Source of the DNA: a virus
Direction: 5' to 3' (one strand)
Length of the DNA stretch: 35,015 bases
Virus record (IMG/VR): IMGVR_UViG_3300025162_000110
Location: 1-35,015 of that record
Made by a program: the position numbers and the translations under genes
Shown: in pieces, positions 12,292 to 34,184 of the stretch
Layout: the number at the start of each line of letters is the position of its first letter
Numbering within the stretch: position 1 is the first letter of the stretch
The notes under the pieces: model-generated
Database searches by the model: none
The model's input: the letters and a program-made list of their open reading frames with translations, nothing else
What the model was told of the DNA's origin: nothing

Positions 12292-12322
12292 TTATATTAG
12301 ATTTCAAAGGAGAACTAATATG
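12292..12322 (+). promoter_or_regulatory. Conserved leader of the second HNH gene
   Basis: Shares TTATATTAGATT, AAGGAG and CTAATATG, with small spacing changes, with the leader at 10095-10124. It lies just after the capsid terminator, so it may supply a promoter for the HNH gene as well as its ribosome binding site. Confidence 0.5.
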
Positions 12323-12814
12323 ACAATCAAAAGTAAATGGAGAAGCCCCCAGAGTCAACACCACTGGATGTGCCTAACAGATGAGGGGCAGATGCCGCTG
12401 GCCCGGGCAATATGGATTATAGCCTACGGCCCTATCCCAGAAGGGTTGGTTCTCCATCATCGCGACGAGGATGTGGATAACAATTGTCTGAACAACTTTG
12501 AACTTATGACTAGCGCTGCACACCAGCGACATCACCACACCGGTAAACATCAGACGGAAGAAACTAAGCGTAAAATAGGCGAAGCCAATGCTGGTAGATC
12601 TCACACTGAGGAGTGTAAACAGAAGATTTCCGAAACTACCAAGCGTGATTGGGATATGTGGCATTCTCGCACTCAATCTAAGGAAACGATAGAGCGTAAG
12701 AAACATCCTTATAGAGAGCGAACGCCGGAGGAGAAGGAAAAGTTACGTAAACATCTTTCCTCTCTTAGGGCAGGAGTAAAAAGAGGCCCATATAAGCCTC
12801 GGCAATCCGCATAG
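12320..12814 (+). CDS. Free-standing HNH homing endonuclease (164 aa)
   Basis: ATG at 12320 follows AAAGGAGAACTAAT. The HNH core is LVLHHRDEDVDNNCLNNFEL (residues 43-62), with His46/47, Asn54/55 and Asn58/59, then HQRHHH (68-73). NUMOD3-type repeats follow (QTEETKRKIGEANAG, HTEECKQKISETT), then a basic tail (RERTPEEKEKLRKHL). Its N-terminal layout (short beta region, then Y-G-P-I-P-E-G before HH) matches the HNH genes at 10122 and 18384, so the three are relatives. It sits between the capsid terminator and the adaptor gene, on the opposite side of the intron-bearing gene from the first HNH. No duplicated host-gene end was seen here. Confidence 0.88.
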   Translation: MTIKSKWRSPQSQHHWMCLTDEGQMPLARAIWIIAYGPIPEGLVLHHRDEDVDNNCLNNFELMTSAAHQRHHHTGKHQTEETKRKIGEANAGRSHTEECKQKISETTKRDWDMWHSRTQSKETIERKKHPYRERTPEEKEKLRKHLSSLRAGVKRGPYKPRQSA

Positions 12815-17164: not shown

Positions 17165-18391
17165 ATGGGTGGCGGATTCTTGGGTAGTATATCGGATGCC
17201 TTCTCGGGTGCGAATGTGGATGCGGCTAACGCAAAAGCGGATGCTGCTGCTAAACAGGCTGCGGCTGAGGCTGCTGCTGCTCAATCTGGGCTTACTGCTG
17301 CAACTGCAAAGGCTGGTGCTGAGGCTGCAACTGCTCAGGGCAACTTGGCAACAGGAACGCAGTATACACAGAACCAAGCAGCGCAAGCGCAAGGTCAGTT
17401 AGGTGCGGCATCAGCCAATCTTGGTGGACTCAACGCCAATCAGTTGGTAGCACAGAACATAGCAGCACAGCAACAAGCCAAGATGACTGGTGGTGCTAAT
17501 GCTTCTATGGGCTCTAATGCTGCTGAGATGCAAGCCAACGCTCAGAGAGCATCACAGGGCTTAGCGGCACGGCAAGGGGAGCAAGCAGCAAGTGGTGCAG
17601 CGGCCGCAGGTGTTCAAGCAGCACGGACTTCGGGGCTGAACAAAGGTATGGCTGCATTGGCTGGTGGTGCTGCCGGAGGCAATGCTTACGGTAGTGCTTA
17701 CACAAGCGGTGTCAACACAGGAATGAATCAGTATGGACAAAATACATCTCAGTTTGCTAATCAAGGCAATGCGGCTGCGGGCCAAGCCAATCAGGCTGCT
17801 GCTAATCAGTATGGCGGTGTTGGTGCACAGGGCAGTCTTGCTGGTCAAGCAGGTTCTTTAGGTCTACAGGCAGGAGCACAGACAAGTCAGAATGCTGCTA
17901 CTGGCGGGACATTAGGATTGAATGCTTCTGGCCAAGCAGGGACTAATGCGAATGCTGGTGGAACATTAGGATTGGCTGCAACAGGTCAAGCAGCACAGAA
18001 CGCACAGGCACAGGCTGCTGCCGCTGCCGCTTCTAATGCTGGTGTTATGTCTGGTATAGGACAAGCCGCTGGTGCTGCGGGTAGTTTGATTATGTCGGAT
18101 GAAAATCAAAAAAAGAATATTACTTCCTCAAAGGGGAATCTTGATGAGTTGCTTCGGAAAATTAGGCCTGTGGATTTCAAATATAGAGAATCAAGCGGGG
18201 AGAATCCAGAACCAGAACATACCGGTGTGATAGCGCAGGACTTAGAGAAGACTCCATTAGCCAGCACCGTGGTAGACACTCCTCAAGGAAAGCAGATTGA
18301 TTCTGCCGCTCTAAATCCCGCATTGCTCAATCTTATATTAGAATTAGCCGGAGAGGTCCGAGATATAAGAAGGGGTAAGAAAGATGCATAG
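17165..18391 (+). CDS. Ala/Gln-rich structural protein with S74 chaperone C-terminus (408 aa)
   Basis: ATG at 17165 follows AAAGGAGAGATAAT. Residues 1 to about 310 are low-complexity Ala/Gly/Gln/Asn with helical heptads (AAAKQAAAEAAAAQ) and repeated GTLGLNASGQAGTNANAGGTL units. Residues about 311-408 are a peptidase S74-type intramolecular chaperone: MSDENQKKNI, LLRKIRPVDFKYRE, HTGVIAQDLEKT, then a final helix LLNLILELAGEVRDI. This domain usually trimerises fibre or neck proteins and then self-cleaves at the Ser of S-D-x-x-x-K-x-N-I. It is probably a tail or ejection-channel component. The C-terminal codons overlap the start of an HNH gene. Confidence 0.75.
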   Translation: MGGGFLGSISDAFSGANVDAANAKADAAAKQAAAEAAAAQSGLTAATAKAGAEAATAQGNLATGTQYTQNQAAQAQGQLGAASANLGGLNANQLVAQNIAAQQQAKMTGGANASMGSNAAEMQANAQRASQGLAARQGEQAASGAAAAGVQAARTSGLNKGMAALAGGAAGGNAYGSAYTSGVNTGMNQYGQNTSQFANQGNAAAGQANQAAANQYGGVGAQGSLAGQAGSLGLQAGAQTSQNAATGGTLGLNASGQAGTNANAGGTLGLAATGQAAQNAQAQAAAAAASNAGVMSGIGQAAGAAGSLIMSDENQKKNITSSKGNLDELLRKIRPVDFKYRESSGENPEPEHTGVIAQDLEKTPLASTVVDTPQGKQIDSAALNPALLNLILELAGEVRDIRRGKKDA

Positions 18392-18938
18392 CGCCACAAC
18401 AAATCAGACAGTAGATGCCAACGGGTATGCTCGTTTGGGTAAGGAGTATGTACACATAATGGTGTGGACTTCTACCAACGGCCCAGTACCAACAGGGTAT
18501 CTTATTCATCATTGGGACTGGAATAAATTGAACAACTCCTTGGATAATTTGGTTTGTGTAACTCCCGCAGAGCACATAAAGATACACCGTGGGGGCATGC
18601 CCCATTCAGCGGAGTGGAATGCAAACATTTCTGCTTCTCTTAAAGGCAAGAAGCGCCGCCCACACACTGAGGAGTGGAAGAAGATGATGTCAGAAAGAAA
18701 TTTTGGTGAGAAGAACGGCTTCTATGGTAAGCATCATACAGAAGAATCAAAGAAGGCTTGTGCCTCCGTACACATTGGAGTTCCTGAGACAGAGGGATCT
18801 AATAGGAAGCGTAGTGAAGCCCTGAAAGGAAAGAAGAAGGGCCCGCAATCAGAGGCTCACAAGGCAAACCTTTCCCTTTCTCATAAGGGAAAGCCTTGGA
18901 GTGAAGCCCGCAGAGCAGCGTGCAAAGGAAGTAAATAA
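18384..18938 (+). CDS. Free-standing HNH homing endonuclease (184 aa)
   Basis: ATG at 18384 overlaps the end of the S74 protein gene by eight bases, with AAGGGG upstream. The HNH core is YLIHHWDWNKLNNSLDNLVCV (residues 39-59; His42/43, Asn50/51, Asn55), followed by EHIKIH (63-68). Four to five NUMOD3-type repeats make up the rest (HTEEWKKMMSERNFG, HTEESKKACASVHIG, QSEAHKANLSLSHKG). Its stop codon nearly abuts the next start (TAA then TAATG), so it is inserted seamlessly between two structural genes. It is related to the other two HNH proteins in the window. Confidence 0.88.
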   Translation: MHSATTNQTVDANGYARLGKEYVHIMVWTSTNGPVPTGYLIHHWDWNKLNNSLDNLVCVTPAEHIKIHRGGMPHSAEWNANISASLKGKKRRPHTEEWKKMMSERNFGEKNGFYGKHHTEESKKACASVHIGVPETEGSNRKRSEALKGKKKGPQSEAHKANLSLSHKGKPWSEARRAACKGSK

Positions 18939-26499: not shown

Positions 26500-29400
26500 G
26501 TGCCTAAACGAATTGAATCTAAGGTCGGCCCGAATCAAGATAACGCAACTCAGGCCGTAGCAGGGCAAACCGGATATGTTCTCCCCATAGCAACCAGTGT
26601 AATACTTGGCGGTGTGAAGATTGGCAGTGGATTGCTGATAGATCCAACAACTGGTGTCTTGTCATCTAATGCCGCCCTCTACCCCGCAACCACAACTACG
26701 CTTGGTGGTATCATAGTAGGGGCTACACTCACAGTCGCTGCTAATGGCTTGCTCAATTACAATAATCCTAATCCAACTCCGTATGTTCTTCCCACAGCAA
26801 CTACACTGATTCTTGGTGGTGTCAAGGTTGACGGTACAACAATCACCATAACAAATGGCGTCATTACTGGTGCAAATACCTACGCGCTTCCTATTGCTTC
26901 CAATAGTATCCTCGGTGGATTCAAAGTAGGAAATAACCTCGCCATCAATAGCACAACAGGCGTGTTGGATGCTCAGAATAGTTATGTTCTCCCCGCCGCG
27001 ACCAACGCTGTCTTAGGTGGAATTATAGTAGGTGATGGCTTAGCAGTAGCAGTCAATGGATTGGTTACTGCGAATGCGCCTACTCCGTATAGCCTGCCCG
27101 CTGCTACCAACCTGATTTTGGGTGGAATCAAGGTAGGAACTACGCTGAATATGACAGCGAATGTATTAAACTATGACAACCCCAATCCTACTCCCTATGC
27201 ATTACCCATAGCAAACAACACAACTCTGGGAGGAGTGAAATCCGGTGCAAACATTTCTGTCAACGCTACTACAGGCGTTATGGATTATTCTAATCCTAAC
27301 CCTACTCCGTACTCTCTTCCTGTAGCAACCAACCTGATTCTTGGTGGAGTCAAAGTCGGCACTACACTGAATATGACTGCCAATGTGCTCAACTATGACA
27401 ACCCAAATCCAACCCCCTATTCACTACCCATAGCAACTAATCTTGCATTGGGCGGAATCATAGTAGGAGATGGACTTGCAGTAGCAGTCAATGGATTGGT
27501 CACGGCTAATGCGCCTACTCCTTATAGCCTACCCGCTGCTACCAACCTGATTTTGGGTGGGATTAAAGTAGGCACTACACTCAATATGACTGCCAATGTT
27601 CTTAACTATGACAACCCTAACCCAACTCCGTATGTTCTTAATAGCGCCGGAATCAATACCGCATTAGGGTTTAGCCCGCTTGATCCTATACTGCTTGCTA
27701 ATGCAAACGGCATAGCAACACTGGGTATCAACGGACAACTTACCATCTCACAGATACCGGCTTCTATCTTAGGCGCGCTAATCTATCAAGGCACCTGGAA
27801 TGCCGCTACCAATATTCCTCCACTGGTATCAAGCACAGGAACAAAAGGTCATTACTATATTGTCAGTGTCCCTGGAACCACCAACCTTGATGGTATTAAT
27901 GTTTGGACCGTGGGCGATTGGGCTATCTTTGATGGCTCTGTCTGGGGTAAAGTAGACGCCGTAGAATCTGTGACTTCTGTATTCGGGCGGACTGGTGAAG
28001 TGGTGATGTCCGCTTTGGATGTCAGCAATGCTCTGACCTATACTCCGTATAGCGCAACCAATCCAAATTCATTCATTAACGCAAGCACTCTTCCGGTAGC
28101 AACCAATTTGATTCTTGGTGGAATTAAAGTCGGCACTACGCTAAATATGACTGCCAATGTATTGAATTACGATAATCCCAATCCAACCCCGTATTCACTC
28201 CCTGCCGCGACAAACTTGGTCTTGGGTGGAATTAAGATTGGCACTACGCTGAATAGCACAGCCAATGTATTGAATTATGATAACCCAAACCCAACTCCGT
28301 ATAGTCTTCCTACTGCAACTAATGTCATTAAAGGTGGCGTCATAGTAGGAAATAATCTTACTGTTGCTGTTAATGGAATGGTTGATGCTAATCCTCCCTA
28401 TAGTCTTCCTACTGCTACAAACTTGGTCTTAGGTGGAATCAAAGTTGGCACTACGCTTAACATGACCGCCAACGTTCTCAATTATGATAACCCAAACCCC
28501 ACTCCGTATAGTCTTCCTACTGCTACCAACCTGGTCAAGGGCGGAATCATAGTAGGTAATAATCTTACCGTAGCCGCTAATGGAATGGTTGATGCTGGCG
28601 CCCCGTATAGTCTTCCTACTGCTACAAACTTGGTCTTAGGTGGAATTAAAGTTGGCACTACACTCAATATGACTGCCAATGTATTGAATTACGATAACCC
28701 CAATCCAACCCCGTATAGTCTTCCTACTGCTACCAACCTGGTCAAGGGCGGTGTGATTGCAGGAAATGGACTTACCGTAGCCGTGAATGGAATGTTGGAT
28801 GCCACTGCAACCGGAGCCTCACTTACAAATACGTATGTTGGCGTTGGTAATGCTGCTGGTGGGTTGAGTGGATCAACTGCTCTTACCTTTGATGGTGCTA
28901 CCCTTGCATCTACAGGATCGGTATTACGATTAGCCGGAGCGCAGGCTACTACTACAGCAAATGCACTAGTGATGGGTGTCAACTCCATCAGCAACTCAAT
29001 TAACTCTGTTGTCATCGGTTTGAATGCTCAGTCGCCTAATGCTATTGCAACAAATAATGTCGTCATAGGAACAAATGCGTTCTCTAATGTGGGTGAGTCT
29101 ATTGCGATTGGCCAGATTGCTCAAACAACTGGATTTGGTGGAATCTCAATAGGCGCTGGTGCTTCGGCAGCGGGGGGCCCTTCTATTTCTGTTGGAATAA
29201 GTTCAAACGCATCGGGCCCAGGAGCAATAGCAATAGGAACTACTAACGCTTTGGGTGGTCCTTTATGTCCAACGAATGCATCAGGGGCGAACTCTTTAGC
29301 AATGATACAAGGTTCCTCAGCCGTCGGCACTAACAGCATTTCCATAGGTATCAACTCTATAGCCTCAGGAATAGATGCTATTGTATTGGGGGCTATATCC

Positions 29401-32169
29401 AACGCAACTGGCAACGGGGCCATTGCTATCGGCTTGAGCGCCAAAGCAGGCACTGGAGTTGCAATCGGTAATGGTGCTACTGCCACAGCCGGAGTTGCAA
29501 TTGGTTCAGAGGCGCTCGCTAGTGGTGGTGGAATTGCTCTCGGTTCAGCCGCAGAAGCAAACGGGGCGGGCTCTATGGCTATTTGGGGGAAGGCGTTGGC
29601 TACTGGTTCTCTCACCCTTGGCGGCACCGCTTTAGTTCAAGTTAATGCTAATGGAGCAATGGCGATAGGGGGAGCGGCTGAGGCCCACACAGGCGCTGAT
29701 TATTCTCTGGCTCTGGGTTTTGGGGTCACAGTGAATGTCGCAAATACCTATGTGATAGGCAGGACCGGAACTAACACCGTTATTCCTGGCACGCTATATG
29801 TCAACGGGGTCAACATCAATGGTGCTACTGGTGGTGGTGGTGCTCTAACCAATACCTACATAGGTGTGGGCGACGCTGGTGGGGCAATGACCGGTACAGC
29901 CAACTTATCCTACGATGGTTCTTTACTGCGCTCAAATGGTCTTAGTGTTGCTCTTGCTGGAGCTAACATACCTAGTGGCCCCGACATAGCCAATGGTTGT
30001 CTTGCAATAGGTTATATTGCTAACGCGACGGGGAAAGCCGCTATTGCAGTGGGCTCTATGGCTAAGGCATTAGCCTATGATTCTATTGCCATAGGTAACA
30101 CTTCTACATCATCTTATGCTAACTCAATTTCTATTGGACGAAATGCAGGAGTCTCAGGCTCTCAAGTTGGTTCAGTCTCAATTGGCCACGGGGCTTATTC
30201 CAGTGGCACAGAGAGCGTAGCATTAGGCCCTTTAGCGGGAGCGGGGTATGCGAATAGCGTTGCAATAGGAAGAGGCGCGGCAGCATCAGCAGCAGAGAGG
30301 ATTGCTTTGGGGGTTGCGACTCATACTGTTGAGATTCCTGGCCAATTGTTTGTCAACGGGGTCAACATAAATGGTGCAGGCGCCATAGCAACGGTCTCAA
30401 CATTAGGCGGAATCATAGTAGGAAACAATCTTACCGTAGCCGCTAATGGAATGTTGAATGCGGCCGCTCCATATAGCCTACCAATAGCAACAACCTCAGT
30501 AGTAGGTGGAGTCAAAGTAGGAAACGGTCTTACCGTAGCCGCGAATGGAATGTTGGATGCTACTGCAACCGGGGCCTCACTTACAAACACCTATGTTGGA
30601 GTTGGTAATGCTGCTGGTGGGTTGAGTGGCTCTGCTGATTTAACCTTTACACAAGCCAAGTTCTACGCTAACTCAGTTCAAGTTCTTCTAGGAACAAGTG
30701 CTGCTGCTACCAATGCTGCGAACGCTATTGGAATAGGCTCTGGCGTAGTGGTTGGTGCGGCTCTTGCTAATACAAACGCAATTGATGCAATTGTTATAGG
30801 TACTGGCGCTGGTGCTTCTACTGTAGCCAATACCTCTGCCAACGGTGCTATAGTTATTGGTAAGTATGCCCAGGCCGGAACGGGGAACAATCAGCAGCCT
30901 ATCAACAGTATAGCTATTGGTGTAAGCAGTATAGCTATAGGTACTAGCACAATTGCAATAGGCAGGGGAGCAAATGCTTGGAGTGTAAATGGTATTGCTA
31001 TTGGTCCATCCTCAAGCGGTGGGTCAGAAAGTATTGCTATTGGAGTTCAAGTTTCCGGTCCCGGCGGCATTGGCACAAAGGCTATTTGTATAGGCTCTGC
31101 AATTCTATCTACAACATCAAGCAACTACATAGCAATAGGCACAAGCGCTGCGCCTGCGTCAAGCTCACCCAACTCCATAATGATAGGAACAGTTTCCCAG
31201 GCAATAGGTGATTCCGCAATAGCCGTTGGTAATGCCGCCTACGCAGGATCAATCAACGGTATAGCAATAGGCTCCGGGGCTAATGCAGCTGGTATAGGTG
31301 GAATTGTAATAGGAGCATCTGCGGCGCGCACGGCGGGGGTGGGTACAATAGCAATTGGATATGGTTCCAACGCTAATGGAGCCGGAGCTGGTGACCCCGG
31401 TTCTGTAGTAATAGGAGCCAATACTGTCGGATCCGTTAACTCAGTTGTGATAGGCAATCTTGCAGCACATAGTAACCTTTCTTATGGAAACGCTGTTCTT
31501 ATTGGATATACAGCTAAGGCAGGTAGAGACTCTGTAGCTATTGGATACAAAGCCAATGGTGGCGCAGCATCATATGCAGTATCAATAGGTAGCGGAGCCT
31601 ATGCTAATAGTGGTCTTGGTGCAATTGCAATTGGAATGAATGCAAGCAGTCAAGGTGCTAATGCAATACATGTTGGGCCGTGGGGCAGTTCAGCTGGAGC
31701 AGCAGCAGTAGGTATTGGTTACTTGACTGTGGCCGTTAGTGCAAATAGCATAGCACTTGGCACTAGTGCAAATACTAATTCTGCTGTTAATGGAATAGCA
31801 ATAGGTCTTTCTTCTTTAGCTGACGCAGAAGATGCAATAGCAATAGGCTCTAGTTCCAAAGCAATAGGAGCAGACTCAATTGCTATTGGAGAAACCGCTA
31901 ACGCATCCGCTGCCAACTCAGTAGCAATAGGATTTGCTGCTGCATCAAGCACCGCAAATATGATTACGCTGGGAACTGCTGCTCATAGCGTAAATGTCCC
32001 CGGCACTCTTAAAGTAAATGCCGCTCCTGTCTTGGGCGTCTTAAATGGAGCTGCAGCCCCGGGCACAACGCCTACAGCTGTTGGTCAAATCTACATAGAT
32101 ACAGGCAATGGAACTATTTACATAGCTAACGGAACCGCATCATCCGCCAACTGGCATTTGATAGCGTAA
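26500..32169 (+). CDS. Giant repetitive tail fibre with YadA-like head repeats (1889 aa)
   Basis: The start is GTG at 26500 (VPKRIESKVGPNQD), preceded by AAGGAGAAAATCAA. Residues about 25-380 and 525-770 contain a unit of about 37 residues, S-L-P-x-A-T-N-L-x-L-GGIKVG followed by TTLNMTANVLNYDNPNPT, seen seven times (one variant). Between them, residues about 380-520 hold a fibre domain with YQGTWNAATN, GDWAIFDGSVW and SVFGRTGEV motifs. From about residue 775 three blocks begin with LTNTYVGVG-type segments and continue in dozens of 14-residue S/A-I-A-I-G-x-x-A repeats, the Hep_Hag/YadA head motif of trimeric adhesins. Each block ends in a P-G-x-L-x-V-N clip. It is probably a long trimeric host-binding fibre and is the last gene of the rightward late block. 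Confidence 0.85.
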   Translation: MPKRIESKVGPNQDNATQAVAGQTGYVLPIATSVILGGVKIGSGLLIDPTTGVLSSNAALYPATTTTLGGIIVGATLTVAANGLLNYNNPNPTPYVLPTATTLILGGVKVDGTTITITNGVITGANTYALPIASNSILGGFKVGNNLAINSTTGVLDAQNSYVLPAATNAVLGGIIVGDGLAVAVNGLVTANAPTPYSLPAATNLILGGIKVGTTLNMTANVLNYDNPNPTPYALPIANNTTLGGVKSGANISVNATTGVMDYSNPNPTPYSLPVATNLILGGVKVGTTLNMTANVLNYDNPNPTPYSLPIATNLALGGIIVGDGLAVAVNGLVTANAPTPYSLPAATNLILGGIKVGTTLNMTANVLNYDNPNPTPYVLNSAGINTALGFSPLDPILLANANGIATLGINGQLTISQIPASILGALIYQGTWNAATNIPPLVSSTGTKGHYYIVSVPGTTNLDGINVWTVGDWAIFDGSVWGKVDAVESVTSVFGRTGEVVMSALDVSNALTYTPYSATNPNSFINASTLPVATNLILGGIKVGTTLNMTANVLNYDNPNPTPYSLPAATNLVLGGIKIGTTLNSTANVLNYDNPNPTPYSLPTATNVIKGGVIVGNNLTVAVNGMVDANPPYSLPTATNLVLGGIKVGTTLNMTANVLNYDNPNPTPYSLPTATNLVKGGIIVGNNLTVAANGMVDAGAPYSLPTATNLVLGGIKVGTTLNMTANVLNYDNPNPTPYSLPTATNLVKGGVIAGNGLTVAVNGMLDATATGASLTNTYVGVGNAAGGLSGSTALTFDGATLASTGSVLRLAGAQATTTANALVMGVNSISNSINSVVIGLNAQSPNAIATNNVVIGTNAFSNVGESIAIGQIAQTTGFGGISIGAGASAAGGPSISVGISSNASGPGAIAIGTTNALGGPLCPTNASGANSLAMIQGSSAVGTNSISIGINSIASGIDAIVLGAISNATGNGAIAIGLSAKAGTGVAIGNGATATAGVAIGSEALASGGGIALGSAAEANGAGSMAIWGKALATGSLTLGGTALVQVNANGAMAIGGAAEAHTGADYSLALGFGVTVNVANTYVIGRTGTNTVIPGTLYVNGVNINGATGGGGALTNTYIGVGDAGGAMTGTANLSYDGSLLRSNGLSVALAGANIPSGPDIANGCLAIGYIANATGKAAIAVGSMAKALAYDSIAIGNTSTSSYANSISIGRNAGVSGSQVGSVSIGHGAYSSGTESVALGPLAGAGYANSVAIGRGAAASAAERIALGVATHTVEIPGQLFVNGVNINGAGAIATVSTLGGIIVGNNLTVAANGMLNAAAPYSLPIATTSVVGGVKVGNGLTVAANGMLDATATGASLTNTYVGVGNAAGGLSGSADLTFTQAKFYANSVQVLLGTSAAATNAANAIGIGSGVVVGAALANTNAIDAIVIGTGAGASTVANTSANGAIVIGKYAQAGTGNNQQPINSIAIGVSSIAIGTSTIAIGRGANAWSVNGIAIGPSSSGGSESIAIGVQVSGPGGIGTKAICIGSAILSTTSSNYIAIGTSAAPASSSPNSIMIGTVSQAIGDSAIAVGNAAYAGSINGIAIGSGANAAGIGGIVIGASAARTAGVGTIAIGYGSNANGAGAGDPGSVVIGANTVGSVNSVVIGNLAAHSNLSYGNAVLIGYTAKAGRDSVAIGYKANGGAASYAVSIGSGAYANSGLGAIAIGMNASSQGANAIHVGPWGSSAGAAAVGIGYLTVAVSANSIALGTSANTNSAVNGIAIGLSSLADAEDAIAIGSSSKAIGADSIAIGETANASAANSVAIGFAAASSTANMITLGTAAHSVNVPGTLKVNAAPVLGVLNGAAAPGTTPTAVGQIYIDTGNGTIYIANGTASSANWHLIA
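27077..28800. repeat. Protein-coding repeat region in the giant fibre gene
   Basis: Units of roughly 100-230 bases encode nearly identical SLP...GGIKVGTTLNMTANVLNYD segments. Copies start near 27080, 27318, 27520, 28085, 28195, 28395 and 28605. Many codons differ synonymously between copies while the amino acids are kept. Confidence 0.85.
28812..31990. repeat. Three YadA-like head blocks in the giant fibre gene
   Basis: Blocks begin near 28812, 29840 and 30572, each with an LTNTYxGVG segment. The lead-ins of blocks 1 and 3 (about 28785-28880 and 30545-30640) are almost identical in DNA. Repeats of about 42 bases encode S-I-A-I-G-type coils throughout. Confidence 0.8.
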
Positions 32170-32181
32170 TTTAAGCAAACA

Positions 32182-32210
32182 AAAACCCCTCAATCACGAG
32201 GGGTTTTCTT
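32182..32210. terminator. Bidirectional rho-independent terminator
   Basis: AAAACCCCTC (32182-32191) and GAGGGGTTTT (32198-32207) form a 10-bp stem with a 6-base loop. The stem ends supply T-runs on both strands. It separates the rightward fibre gene from the convergent leftward Tad2-like gene. Confidence 0.92.
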
Positions 32211-32215
32211 TACTC

Positions 32216-32500
32216 TCAATCCTTCCACATCACATCGCCACCATCCAGTCTAGGCCCTTGATTCTGTCCGGACTCAACCACAGCCCATCCCACAGAGAAT
32301 ACATCCCCTTGGCTAATCAACCACGGGACTCTGTGCTTGCCGGTGACTAAAAAAAGATAGGGATCTGTATTCATTGAATGCGCATCAGGCATTTGTTTGC
32401 CAACATACATAGTCAGCCCCAGCCTAACCCCATTCCAATCCCTGCGATAGATTTTTACATCATCATCAATTACTAGTTTTAGTGCTTGGTAGAGTGTCAT
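32216..32500 (-). CDS. Tad2-like (DUF2829) anti-Thoeris candidate (94 aa)
   Basis: ATG at 32500 has GGAG six bases upstream. The sequence follows the DUF2829/Tad2 pattern in order: an N-terminal helix (MTLYQALKLVIDD), a strand with a basic pair and Trp (VKIYRRDWNGVRLGLTMYV, residues 15-33), a loop, PYLFLVTGKHRVPW (47-60), then SQGDVFSVGWAVVE (63-76). The family's usual ending is V-x-W-x-x-S-x-x-D-x-x-x-x-D-W. Characterised Tad2 proteins bind cyclic ADP-ribose-type signals and so block Thoeris immunity. Length is normal. The last-step Asp-Trp is Gly-Trp here. It overlaps the glycosyltransferase gene by 35 bases and is cotranscribed with it. Binding activity is inferred from family membership only. 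Confidence 0.78.
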   Translation of the reverse strand: MTLYQALKLVIDDDVKIYRRDWNGVRLGLTMYVGKQMPDAHSMNTDPYLFLVTGKHRVPWLISQGDVFSVGWAVVESGQNQGPRLDGGDVMWKD

Positions 32501-33632
32501 TTGATTTCTCCTTTACATGAATGTTGCTTTGTAGACTATTGATTGCATTTGTTCTCCCTATTTGGTCCGCGAACATAGACTCCGTCAGGACTTCAGCCCT
32601 GACGCCTTGAATAGCGCCATTCTCTAGTTGTTTGATAGATAGATTAAAGTGTTTATTAAGCCAGCTATTAAATGATTCACTTTCTATCATGTAGGGGTCT
32701 TGCGCATAAGCGCCCATTCTACCGGTTTGTAGAACTTGCTTGAATGCGTTATAATAGCGCTCATCCTTATTAATTAAATCAATAAGTTTACTACCTTCAA
32801 GGGATTCTTTGAGAACTTTGTAGGTCTCTACAATTTCAGGGGAATCAGCAGGGAAACGTCTTTCAAGGCCTTGTGTATAGAAGTAACACATGACCTGCTG
32901 GCTAATAATTAAATCTATAACATTATCTCTTCCTTTCAAAGGCTCAAGAGTCTGATAATTTAACCAGAATGCTAAGGCGTAGTACTTTAACATGCGAAGA
33001 ATATATTCTGGACTTCTGACAATTGAATTTGCTGTAGCTGTCCAGAAATACATTATGTCAGGAATAGCAATTTGAAATTGGGCTAGGCGTGAGGCCCAAG
33101 TTACAAAGAAACCATCTTCCCACAATTTCACCCTAGGATCAAATCCAATTTTATTATCTTTAATGAACTTCATCCTGAATGCCTTTCCGTGCACCCAGCT
33201 GCCCTCAAGTGGCTGATGAGGATTTCTGACCCCAGATAAATGAGCTTCAACGAACTGGCCGTGGAGAATATCCGGTATTCTACCTTGTTGAGCTTGTACA
33301 TCAATATTCTTCTTGTAGGTCATTAGCGTCTCACAATGATACTCCATATCATCGTCGTCAATCATAATGACGTAATCACCATCCACGTGATCAAGAATCC
33401 GTTGTCTCTGAACAGCAATACCTTCATTTGAGAAACGTAAATAATGAATAGGCTCTGGCATAAACTCTGAGAATTGTTTGGCTAATGCTTCATAGCGTTC
33501 TCCGTGAGGTGAGCCATCATCAAGCATCCACACATTGAACCCGCGATAGGTTTGGATAGCTACGCTCATTAATGTCATTGCTATGTGATCAGGGTGTCCA
33601 TAGCAAGGTATTCCTATACTGAAAGTGGGCAT
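32466..33632 (-). CDS. Family 2 glycosyltransferase (388 aa)
   Basis: ATG at 33632 (MPTFSIGIPCYG) is preferred over the adjacent ATG at 33635 because GGAG is five bases upstream. The GT-A fold is clear: IGIPCYGHPDHI at the nucleotide-binding start, VWMLDDGSP (D38, D39), GIAVQRQRILDHVDGDYVIM and the metal-binding IDDDD at 91-95. The C-terminal 200 residues are helical and of unknown family. The enzyme should transfer a sugar from a nucleotide sugar to an acceptor. In phages this may alter host surface glycan, phage DNA or a virion protein; the acceptor is unknown. It heads a two-gene unit with the Tad2-like gene, after a terminator. Confidence 0.88.
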   Translation of the reverse strand: MPTFSIGIPCYGHPDHIAMTLMSVAIQTYRGFNVWMLDDGSPHGERYEALAKQFSEFMPEPIHYLRFSNEGIAVQRQRILDHVDGDYVIMIDDDDMEYHCETLMTYKKNIDVQAQQGRIPDILHGQFVEAHLSGVRNPHQPLEGSWVHGKAFRMKFIKDNKIGFDPRVKLWEDGFFVTWASRLAQFQIAIPDIMYFWTATANSIVRSPEYILRMLKYYALAFWLNYQTLEPLKGRDNVIDLIISQQVMCYFYTQGLERRFPADSPEIVETYKVLKESLEGSKLIDLINKDERYYNAFKQVLQTGRMGAYAQDPYMIESESFNSWLNKHFNLSIKQLENGAIQGVRAEVLTESMFADQIGRTNAINSLQSNIHVKEKSNDTLPSTKTSN

Positions 33633-33666
33633 CATTACTCCTTGCAACTTATAATATAATTAGTAA

Positions 33667-33700
33667 ATTATAAAAAAACCTGTCCTTTCAGACAGGTTTT
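33667..33700 (-). terminator. Rho-independent terminator (leftward)
   Basis: AAAACCTGTC (33675-33684) and GACAGGTTTT (33691-33700) pair perfectly around a 6-base loop. On the - strand a T-run of seven follows. It ends the leftward block that includes 33706-34933, so the glycosyltransferase gene needs a promoter in the AT-rich 33636-33670 stretch or read-through. Confidence 0.9.
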
Positions 33701-33705
33701 GGCTC

Positions 33706-33810
33706 TTACTGCCACTCTGGCAGACTACAAATAAAGTCCCTCTCTCTCCACGTCAGGTGCCTCCCTTCCATCCGCTTCTTCCACATTTTCACTTTACGTC
33801 TATGACTCAC
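33706..33810 (-). CDS. Very small basic protein (34 aa)
   Basis: A GTG start at 33810 overlaps the stop codon of the transglutaminase-like gene, with GGAGG five bases upstream. The frame reads MSHRRKVKMWKKRMEGRHLT and ends SLPEWQ, then TAA, just before the terminator stem. It is highly basic. The coupled start, good ribosome binding site and terminator placement support it being real, but no homologue was recognised and the call rests on context. Confidence 0.5.
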   Translation of the reverse strand: MSHRRKVKMWKKRMEGRHLTWRERDFICSLPEWQ

Positions 33811-34184
33811 AATTTCCTCCATCCGCTTGGCAATTTCTCATACACATCACCCGTGACTGGATCTAGGTATTCTCCTAATAAACAGGTATACACAATGGCG
33901 TGATTCCCCTTAGGCGTAGAAACCAGCATAATCTCCGCTGAGCAAATGTTGTACTTATCTAAGATATCCAGTAGTAGCAGCGCCATCCCTCCACAATTGG
34001 CGGTGCGAGTTCTTAGCGTGACATCCGGCTTTTGGGATTCAGCAAGGGTCGTGTAGTAGTGGGCGTATTTTATGTGGCTGTGAACCCATTGGGTGGCGTC
34101 TTCTTTGGACATAGCGGAGAAGTTCTGCGCGAAGACAGCCGTGATGCCGGCCATCAGAATGAACACTATCACGGCTTTACGCAT
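33807..34184 (-). CDS. Exported transglutaminase-like protein (125 aa)
   Basis: ATG at 34184 follows GGGAGGCAAAGTAA. Residues 1-19 are a signal peptide (MRKAVIVFILMAGITAVFA) with a likely cut before Gln20; the cut site is AxA-like only in part. The mature part has the transglutaminase-like catalytic order: TANCGGMALLLLDIL (C64 at the start of a helix), GNHAIVY (H95) and EYLDPVTG (D108). This Cys-His-Asp arrangement serves proteases, amidases or transamidases. An exported phage protein of this kind would act in the periplasm or cell envelope. At about 105 mature residues it is a minimal version of the fold. The substrate is unknown. Confidence 0.7.
   Translation of the reverse strand: MRKAVIVFILMAGITAVFAQNFSAMSKEDATQWVHSHIKYAHYYTTLAESQKPDVTLRTRTANCGGMALLLLDILDKYNICSAEIMLVSTPKGNHAIVYTCLLGEYLDPVTGDVYEKLPSGWRKL

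Follow-up and report, generated by a model that had tools for sequence, protein, structure and literature searches.

Judged from its sequence and from a modelled structure, the 94-residue protein encoded on the right side of the viral DNA analysed here is a genuine but divergent member of the Tad2 family, a family that was known already. The window, i.e. the whole stretch of DNA that was analysed, is a whole virus record of 35,015 bases. With modest confidence we propose that the gene is an accessory counter-defence gene whose product acts as a Tad2-family sponge for a TIR-made signal of the ADP-ribose type, that is, as an anti-Thoeris protein.

Position and layout of the Tad2-like gene

The Tad2-like gene is the last gene of a leftward block that meets a fibre-like gene. 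The elements of this region are:

26500-32169, + strand, fibre-like gene of 1889 aa with repeated Phage_head_fibr and YadA-head motifs (trimeric-adhesin-like)
32181..32208, no single strand, bidirectional intrinsic terminator in the interval between the fibre gene and the Tad2-like gene (12-bp stem, z -5.0)
32216..32500, - strand, Tad2-like (PF11195/DUF2829) gene, ATG to TGA, 94 aa
32508..32514, - strand, AAAGGAG, the Shine-Dalgarno sequence of the Tad2-like gene, with 7 nt between it and the ATG
32466..33635, - strand, gene for a family 2 glycosyltransferase (PF00535), sharing 35 nt with the Tad2-like gene
33675..33700, - strand, intrinsic terminator just upstream of the glycosyltransferase gene (z -4.5)

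The open reading frame call and the translation agreed with the original prediction of a 94-residue frame at 32216-32500 on the reverse strand, and the 35-nt overlap with the glycosyltransferase gene (32466-32500) that it described was also found. The glycosyltransferase gene stops with a TGA at 32466, and its start was revised: the most likely start is the ATG at 33635 (or 33632), which has its own AAGGAG, and not the upstream TTG. The placement after the tail-fibre block was likewise correct, since the + strand fibre-like gene extends to 32169 and the Tad2-like gene runs leftward; the glycosyltransferase/Tad2-like pair is therefore convergent with the fibre-like gene. The z scores of the two terminators compare their folding with that of shuffled sequence, and both fold far better. 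The terminator at 33675..33700 sets the glycosyltransferase gene apart from the next leftward genes, and with terminators at both ends the glycosyltransferase and Tad2-like genes look like one bounded, predicted unit. No promoter was identified for this unit.

The original prediction had placed the two genes in one leftward unit, and a functional partnership between them was also considered. Relatives of the window glycosyltransferase were found near Tad2-like genes in none of 135 gathered loci, and the partnership was dropped for this reason. Of the earlier interpretation, the family and the Tad2 fold stood (by profile and structure comparison), while the Tad2-like gene seems to be connected with the glycosyltransferase by adjacency only.

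Several other genes of the window were recorded. The leftward block upstream of the 33675..33700 terminator includes a gene (33807-34184, - strand) for a small protein that has a hydrophobic stretch at its N-terminus and weakly matches a transglutaminase-like domain (DUF553). Inside the structural region lie two homing endonuclease genes of the HNH/NUMOD type (12320-12814 and 18384-18938, + strand). Near the left end of the phage, a DUF6884 protein (1852-2574, + strand) also matches the PADLOC candidate model PDC-M57A; the Tad2-like protein had no match in the PADLOC search.

Family membership and relation to known Tad2 proteins

The protein matched PF11195 (Tad2-like, formerly DUF2829) over the whole profile (1-73 of 73; E = 1.3e-9) with 38.8 bits, above the curated cut-off of 25 bits, as the original prediction of a DUF2829/Tad2 protein would have it, and the match was repeated in a six-frame search. 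The absence of a PF11195 match, which that prediction had named as a refuting outcome, was thereby excluded. The score is low (about 38.5-38.8 bits) compared with the mostly 77-88 bits of genomic members met in passing, and two further genomic members were equally weak (34-38 bits); by this measure the protein is a distant member of PF11195. The family-invariant residues R19, W22, N23, G24, W60, S63, Q64, D66 and W72 are kept, so that the conserved core (R..WNG, W..SQ.D and D-W) is complete except for Asp71, which is Gly.

In a phmmer search of the solved structures with the window protein alone, SPO1 Tad2 was reached only at E 0.29, whereas a profile built from the protein and 41 relatives retrieved SptTad2, AcrIIA7, SPO1 Tad2 and ModTad2 at E 1e-14 to 1e-19. 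The AlphaFold model of the monomer had a mean pLDDT of 80, with most of the core above 90 and residues 79-94 below 50. The domain covers residues 1-75, and the low-confidence tail (residues 79-94) is absent from the relatives. The comparison with Tad2 structures proposed at the outset gave a match of the modelled protein to the Tad2 fold, with Z 10.1-11.2 to all solved members (SPO1 Tad2, ModTad2, SptTad2 and HgmTad2/AcrIIA7) and 5.7 for the best other fold. This fold was predicted only when the relatives' alignment was supplied; from the single sequence the prediction did not reach it (pLDDT 39). The neck protein of phage 812 was rejected as a fold match, its Z of 5.7 being weak and below the trusted level.

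No close relatives turned up in viral contigs in a single-sequence search, nor in searches with the terminase or with the glycosyltransferase, and the right-hand 9 kb of the window had no near neighbour among phage records. A tblastn alignment running to residue 94 suggested that an Omnitrophota relative shares the C-terminal tail, but this likeness was not real, as the Omnitrophota protein stops at the domain end. The PHROG matches, phrog_1048 and phrog_872 (~170-210 positions), were hit at their C-terminal end; in these the Tad2-like domain is part of longer phage proteins with an added N-terminal part.

Among the solved proteins, the model shares its fold with SPO1 Tad2 (gp34.65; PDB 8SME/8SMF/8SMG; Z 11.2, 71 aligned residues, rmsd 2.0), the anti-Thoeris sponge that sequesters gcADPR (PMC11722364, PMC12043709). 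Size and the WNG / W..SQxD / W core are also common to both, at about 28-30% identity. The window protein differs from SPO1 Tad2 in that it is without the long insert after beta2, has a beta1-beta2 loop longer by four residues, carries Gly for Asp71 and ends in a 19-residue tail. Fold (Z 11.1) and size are likewise shared with ModTad2 (PDB 8V3E, 9EIB), a protein of a Myroides prophage that binds His-ADPR (PMC13299392) and is 28% identical to the window protein over 69 aligned residues. AcrIIA7/HgmTad2 (PDB 8KBI-8KBM) and SptTad2 (8WJD) have the same fold (Z 10.1-11.0) and Pfam family, but carry the long insertion credited with cyclic-dinucleotide binding, which the window protein does not have.

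In the alignments, the long stretch after beta2 is present in SPO1 Tad2, AcrIIA7/HgmTad2 and SptTad2 and absent from the window protein and its nearest relatives, which form a short class. The closest proteins by sequence (38-44% identity) are short-class DUF2829 members with a PD-x-HS...T-x-PY motif, for example those of Acinetobacter phage XC38, Pseudomonas phage PaBG and Mycobacterium phage MalagasyRose (PD-x-HSKMT-x-PY), and the window protein has this motif as PDAHSMNTDPY. All of these have 9 residues between WNG and PD and an Asp before the final Trp, whereas the window protein has 13 and Gly. Our literature search found no short-class member with tested activity, and the solved members with a readable alignment carry the long insert.

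A longer loop and a glycine at position 71

Two stretches of the gene encode changes that are atypical of the family:

32405..32440, - strand, codons of residues 21-32 (DWNGVRLGLTMY), the beta1-beta2 loop, in which 4 residues are inserted compared with the sampled relatives
32285..32290, - strand, codons of Gly71-Trp72 (GGA TGG); position 71 is Asp in every sampled relative

The comparison set consisted of 93 distinct Tad2-like cores from the gathered loci (viral contigs, phages and genomes), a sample in which RVPW-type members are over-represented owing to the construction of the search patterns. The spacing from WNG to PD was 13 residues in the window protein and 9 in essentially all of the 93 cores; a lone spacing of 25 residues was an artefact of the pattern, the protein concerned having PG for PD. 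The 4 extra residues after Trp-Asn-Gly, which had been missed earlier, fall in the modelled loop between beta1 and beta2 (strands at residues 17-19 and 32-36). In Tad2 this loop has been described as part of the gcADPR pocket (review, PMC12043709).

The original prediction had pointed to Gly-Trp in place of the usual Asp-Trp near the end of the protein, and GGA TGG was indeed found where all sampled relatives have Asp. In essentially all 93 cores an Asp stands before the last Trp or Tyr, and the entries read as WY or WF also have this D-W, the pattern having been read with a shift of one residue. The divergent phage members, which were picked from a search with SPO1 Tad2 and include insert-bearing ones, all have Asp at that position. 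The codon GGA is two base changes away from an Asp codon, which makes a single read error an unlikely cause. When 2.9 million viral contigs were searched with a DNA pattern for P-W-x-x-S-Q-[T/G/S/A]-D-x4-G-W, no true second case of Gly-Trp was revealed; the sole match lay outside any Tad2-like frame and was discarded. The Gln-Gly-Asp that the window protein has for Gln-Thr-Asp is not unique and occurred in 3 of the 93 cores.

Proposed function and alternatives

If the window protein is an anti-Thoeris sponge, its gene would be a 'moron'-type accessory gene with which a tailed phage counters host defence, presumably cotranscribed with the glycosyltransferase gene in a short unit that lies where the tail-fibre block ends and has a terminator on either side. 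The product would assemble as an oligomer (a tetramer in SPO1 Tad2, and in functional anti-Thoeris Tad2 a homotetramer with two pockets) and bind, without degrading it, an ADP-ribose-derived signal (gcADPR or a related molecule, e.g. His-ADPR) from a host TIR protein. With the signal held away, the Thoeris effector would stay off.

The distribution of the family fits a mobile accessory gene, since Tad2-like genes occur in many unrelated contexts and are sparse in genomes. Such a gene lies beside ribonucleotide reductase and primase genes in Acinetobacter phage XC38, between capsid and tail genes in Klebsiella phage PWKp9B, and immediately upstream of a nicotinamide phosphoribosyltransferase gene in Aeromonas phage Ahp1_CNU-2021 (locus L003, 3983-5911). 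In Pectobacterium phage PP99 (L149, 274-504) it directly follows the tail spike gene, at the end of the genome, a position like that in the window. The PF11195 domain was present in 4 of 249 and 2 of 249 sampled genomes, each count including the centre genome of the sample. The pair in Ahp1_CNU-2021 is possibly a module that mops up NAD-derived signals and rebuilds NAD+. Several records of Klebsiella and Vibrio phages (L150, 265-504; H51, H53) label Tad2-like proteins as methionyl-tRNA synthetase, probably a mis-annotation; the label in L150 is doubtful because the protein, with <80 residues, is far too short for a synthetase.

The main alternative, unlikely but to be taken seriously, is that the protein has drifted to another use, having either lost immune-signal binding through a degenerate pocket or taken on a virion- or glycan-related role with the glycosyltransferase as partner. 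The longer loop and the change of Asp71 to Gly, in or near the presumed pocket, could have abolished ligand binding, and both features, the length of the loop and the Asp that precedes the last Trp, are otherwise invariant in the 93 distinct cores. The low PF11195 score relative to typical members and the occurrence of Tad2-like domains inside longer phage proteins that have no assigned role (phrog_1048, phrog_872) are also consistent with drift. However, the conserved core has otherwise been preserved, the frame is uninterrupted and preceded by a strong Shine-Dalgarno sequence, and the 135 loci speak against a glycosyltransferase partner. Alternatively, the protein might still be a sponge, with its pocket loop and last-strand Asp changed so as to suit a signal not bound by any known Tad2 and produced by an unrecognised TIR- or nucleotide-based defence of the host; we regard this as improbable.

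That the protein is a sponge for a cyclic dinucleotide, directed against CBASS and with no Thoeris signal as its ligand, seems to us a rather poor prospect as well. HgmTad2/AcrIIA7 and SptTad2 do bind cGG and other cyclic dinucleotides (8kbk, 8wjd; PMC12043709), but this binding has been attributed to the long insertion between beta2 and beta5 (PMC12043709), which is missing here and in the nearest relatives. The cyclic-dinucleotide mode is for this reason not expected, and a signal of the ADP-ribose type is the better guess. An AcrIIA7-like anti-CRISPR that targets Cas9 and not a nucleotide is very improbable: AcrIIA7, reported as anti-Cas9, was found by selection for Cas9 inhibitors (PMC6739867), has the same Pfam domain DUF2829 (PMC6739104) and matches the model in its solved structure (8kbi, Z 10.6), but the same protein binds cADPR and cGG (8kbk), so that its main role may be that of a sponge, its homologues are seldom found with type II-A self-targeting spacers (PMC6739104), and no Aca or helix-turn-helix neighbour was recognised in the window by Pfam search.

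Tad2 relatives are common, but those for which we found a known ligand have the insert. A member of the short form whose pocket loop has changed is a good probe of how the fold changes over between signals of the ADPR type and dinucleotides. If the window protein is a plain anti-Thoeris sponge, it would be an ordinary addition to a known family; binding of a new ligand would point to an immune signal that is itself new.
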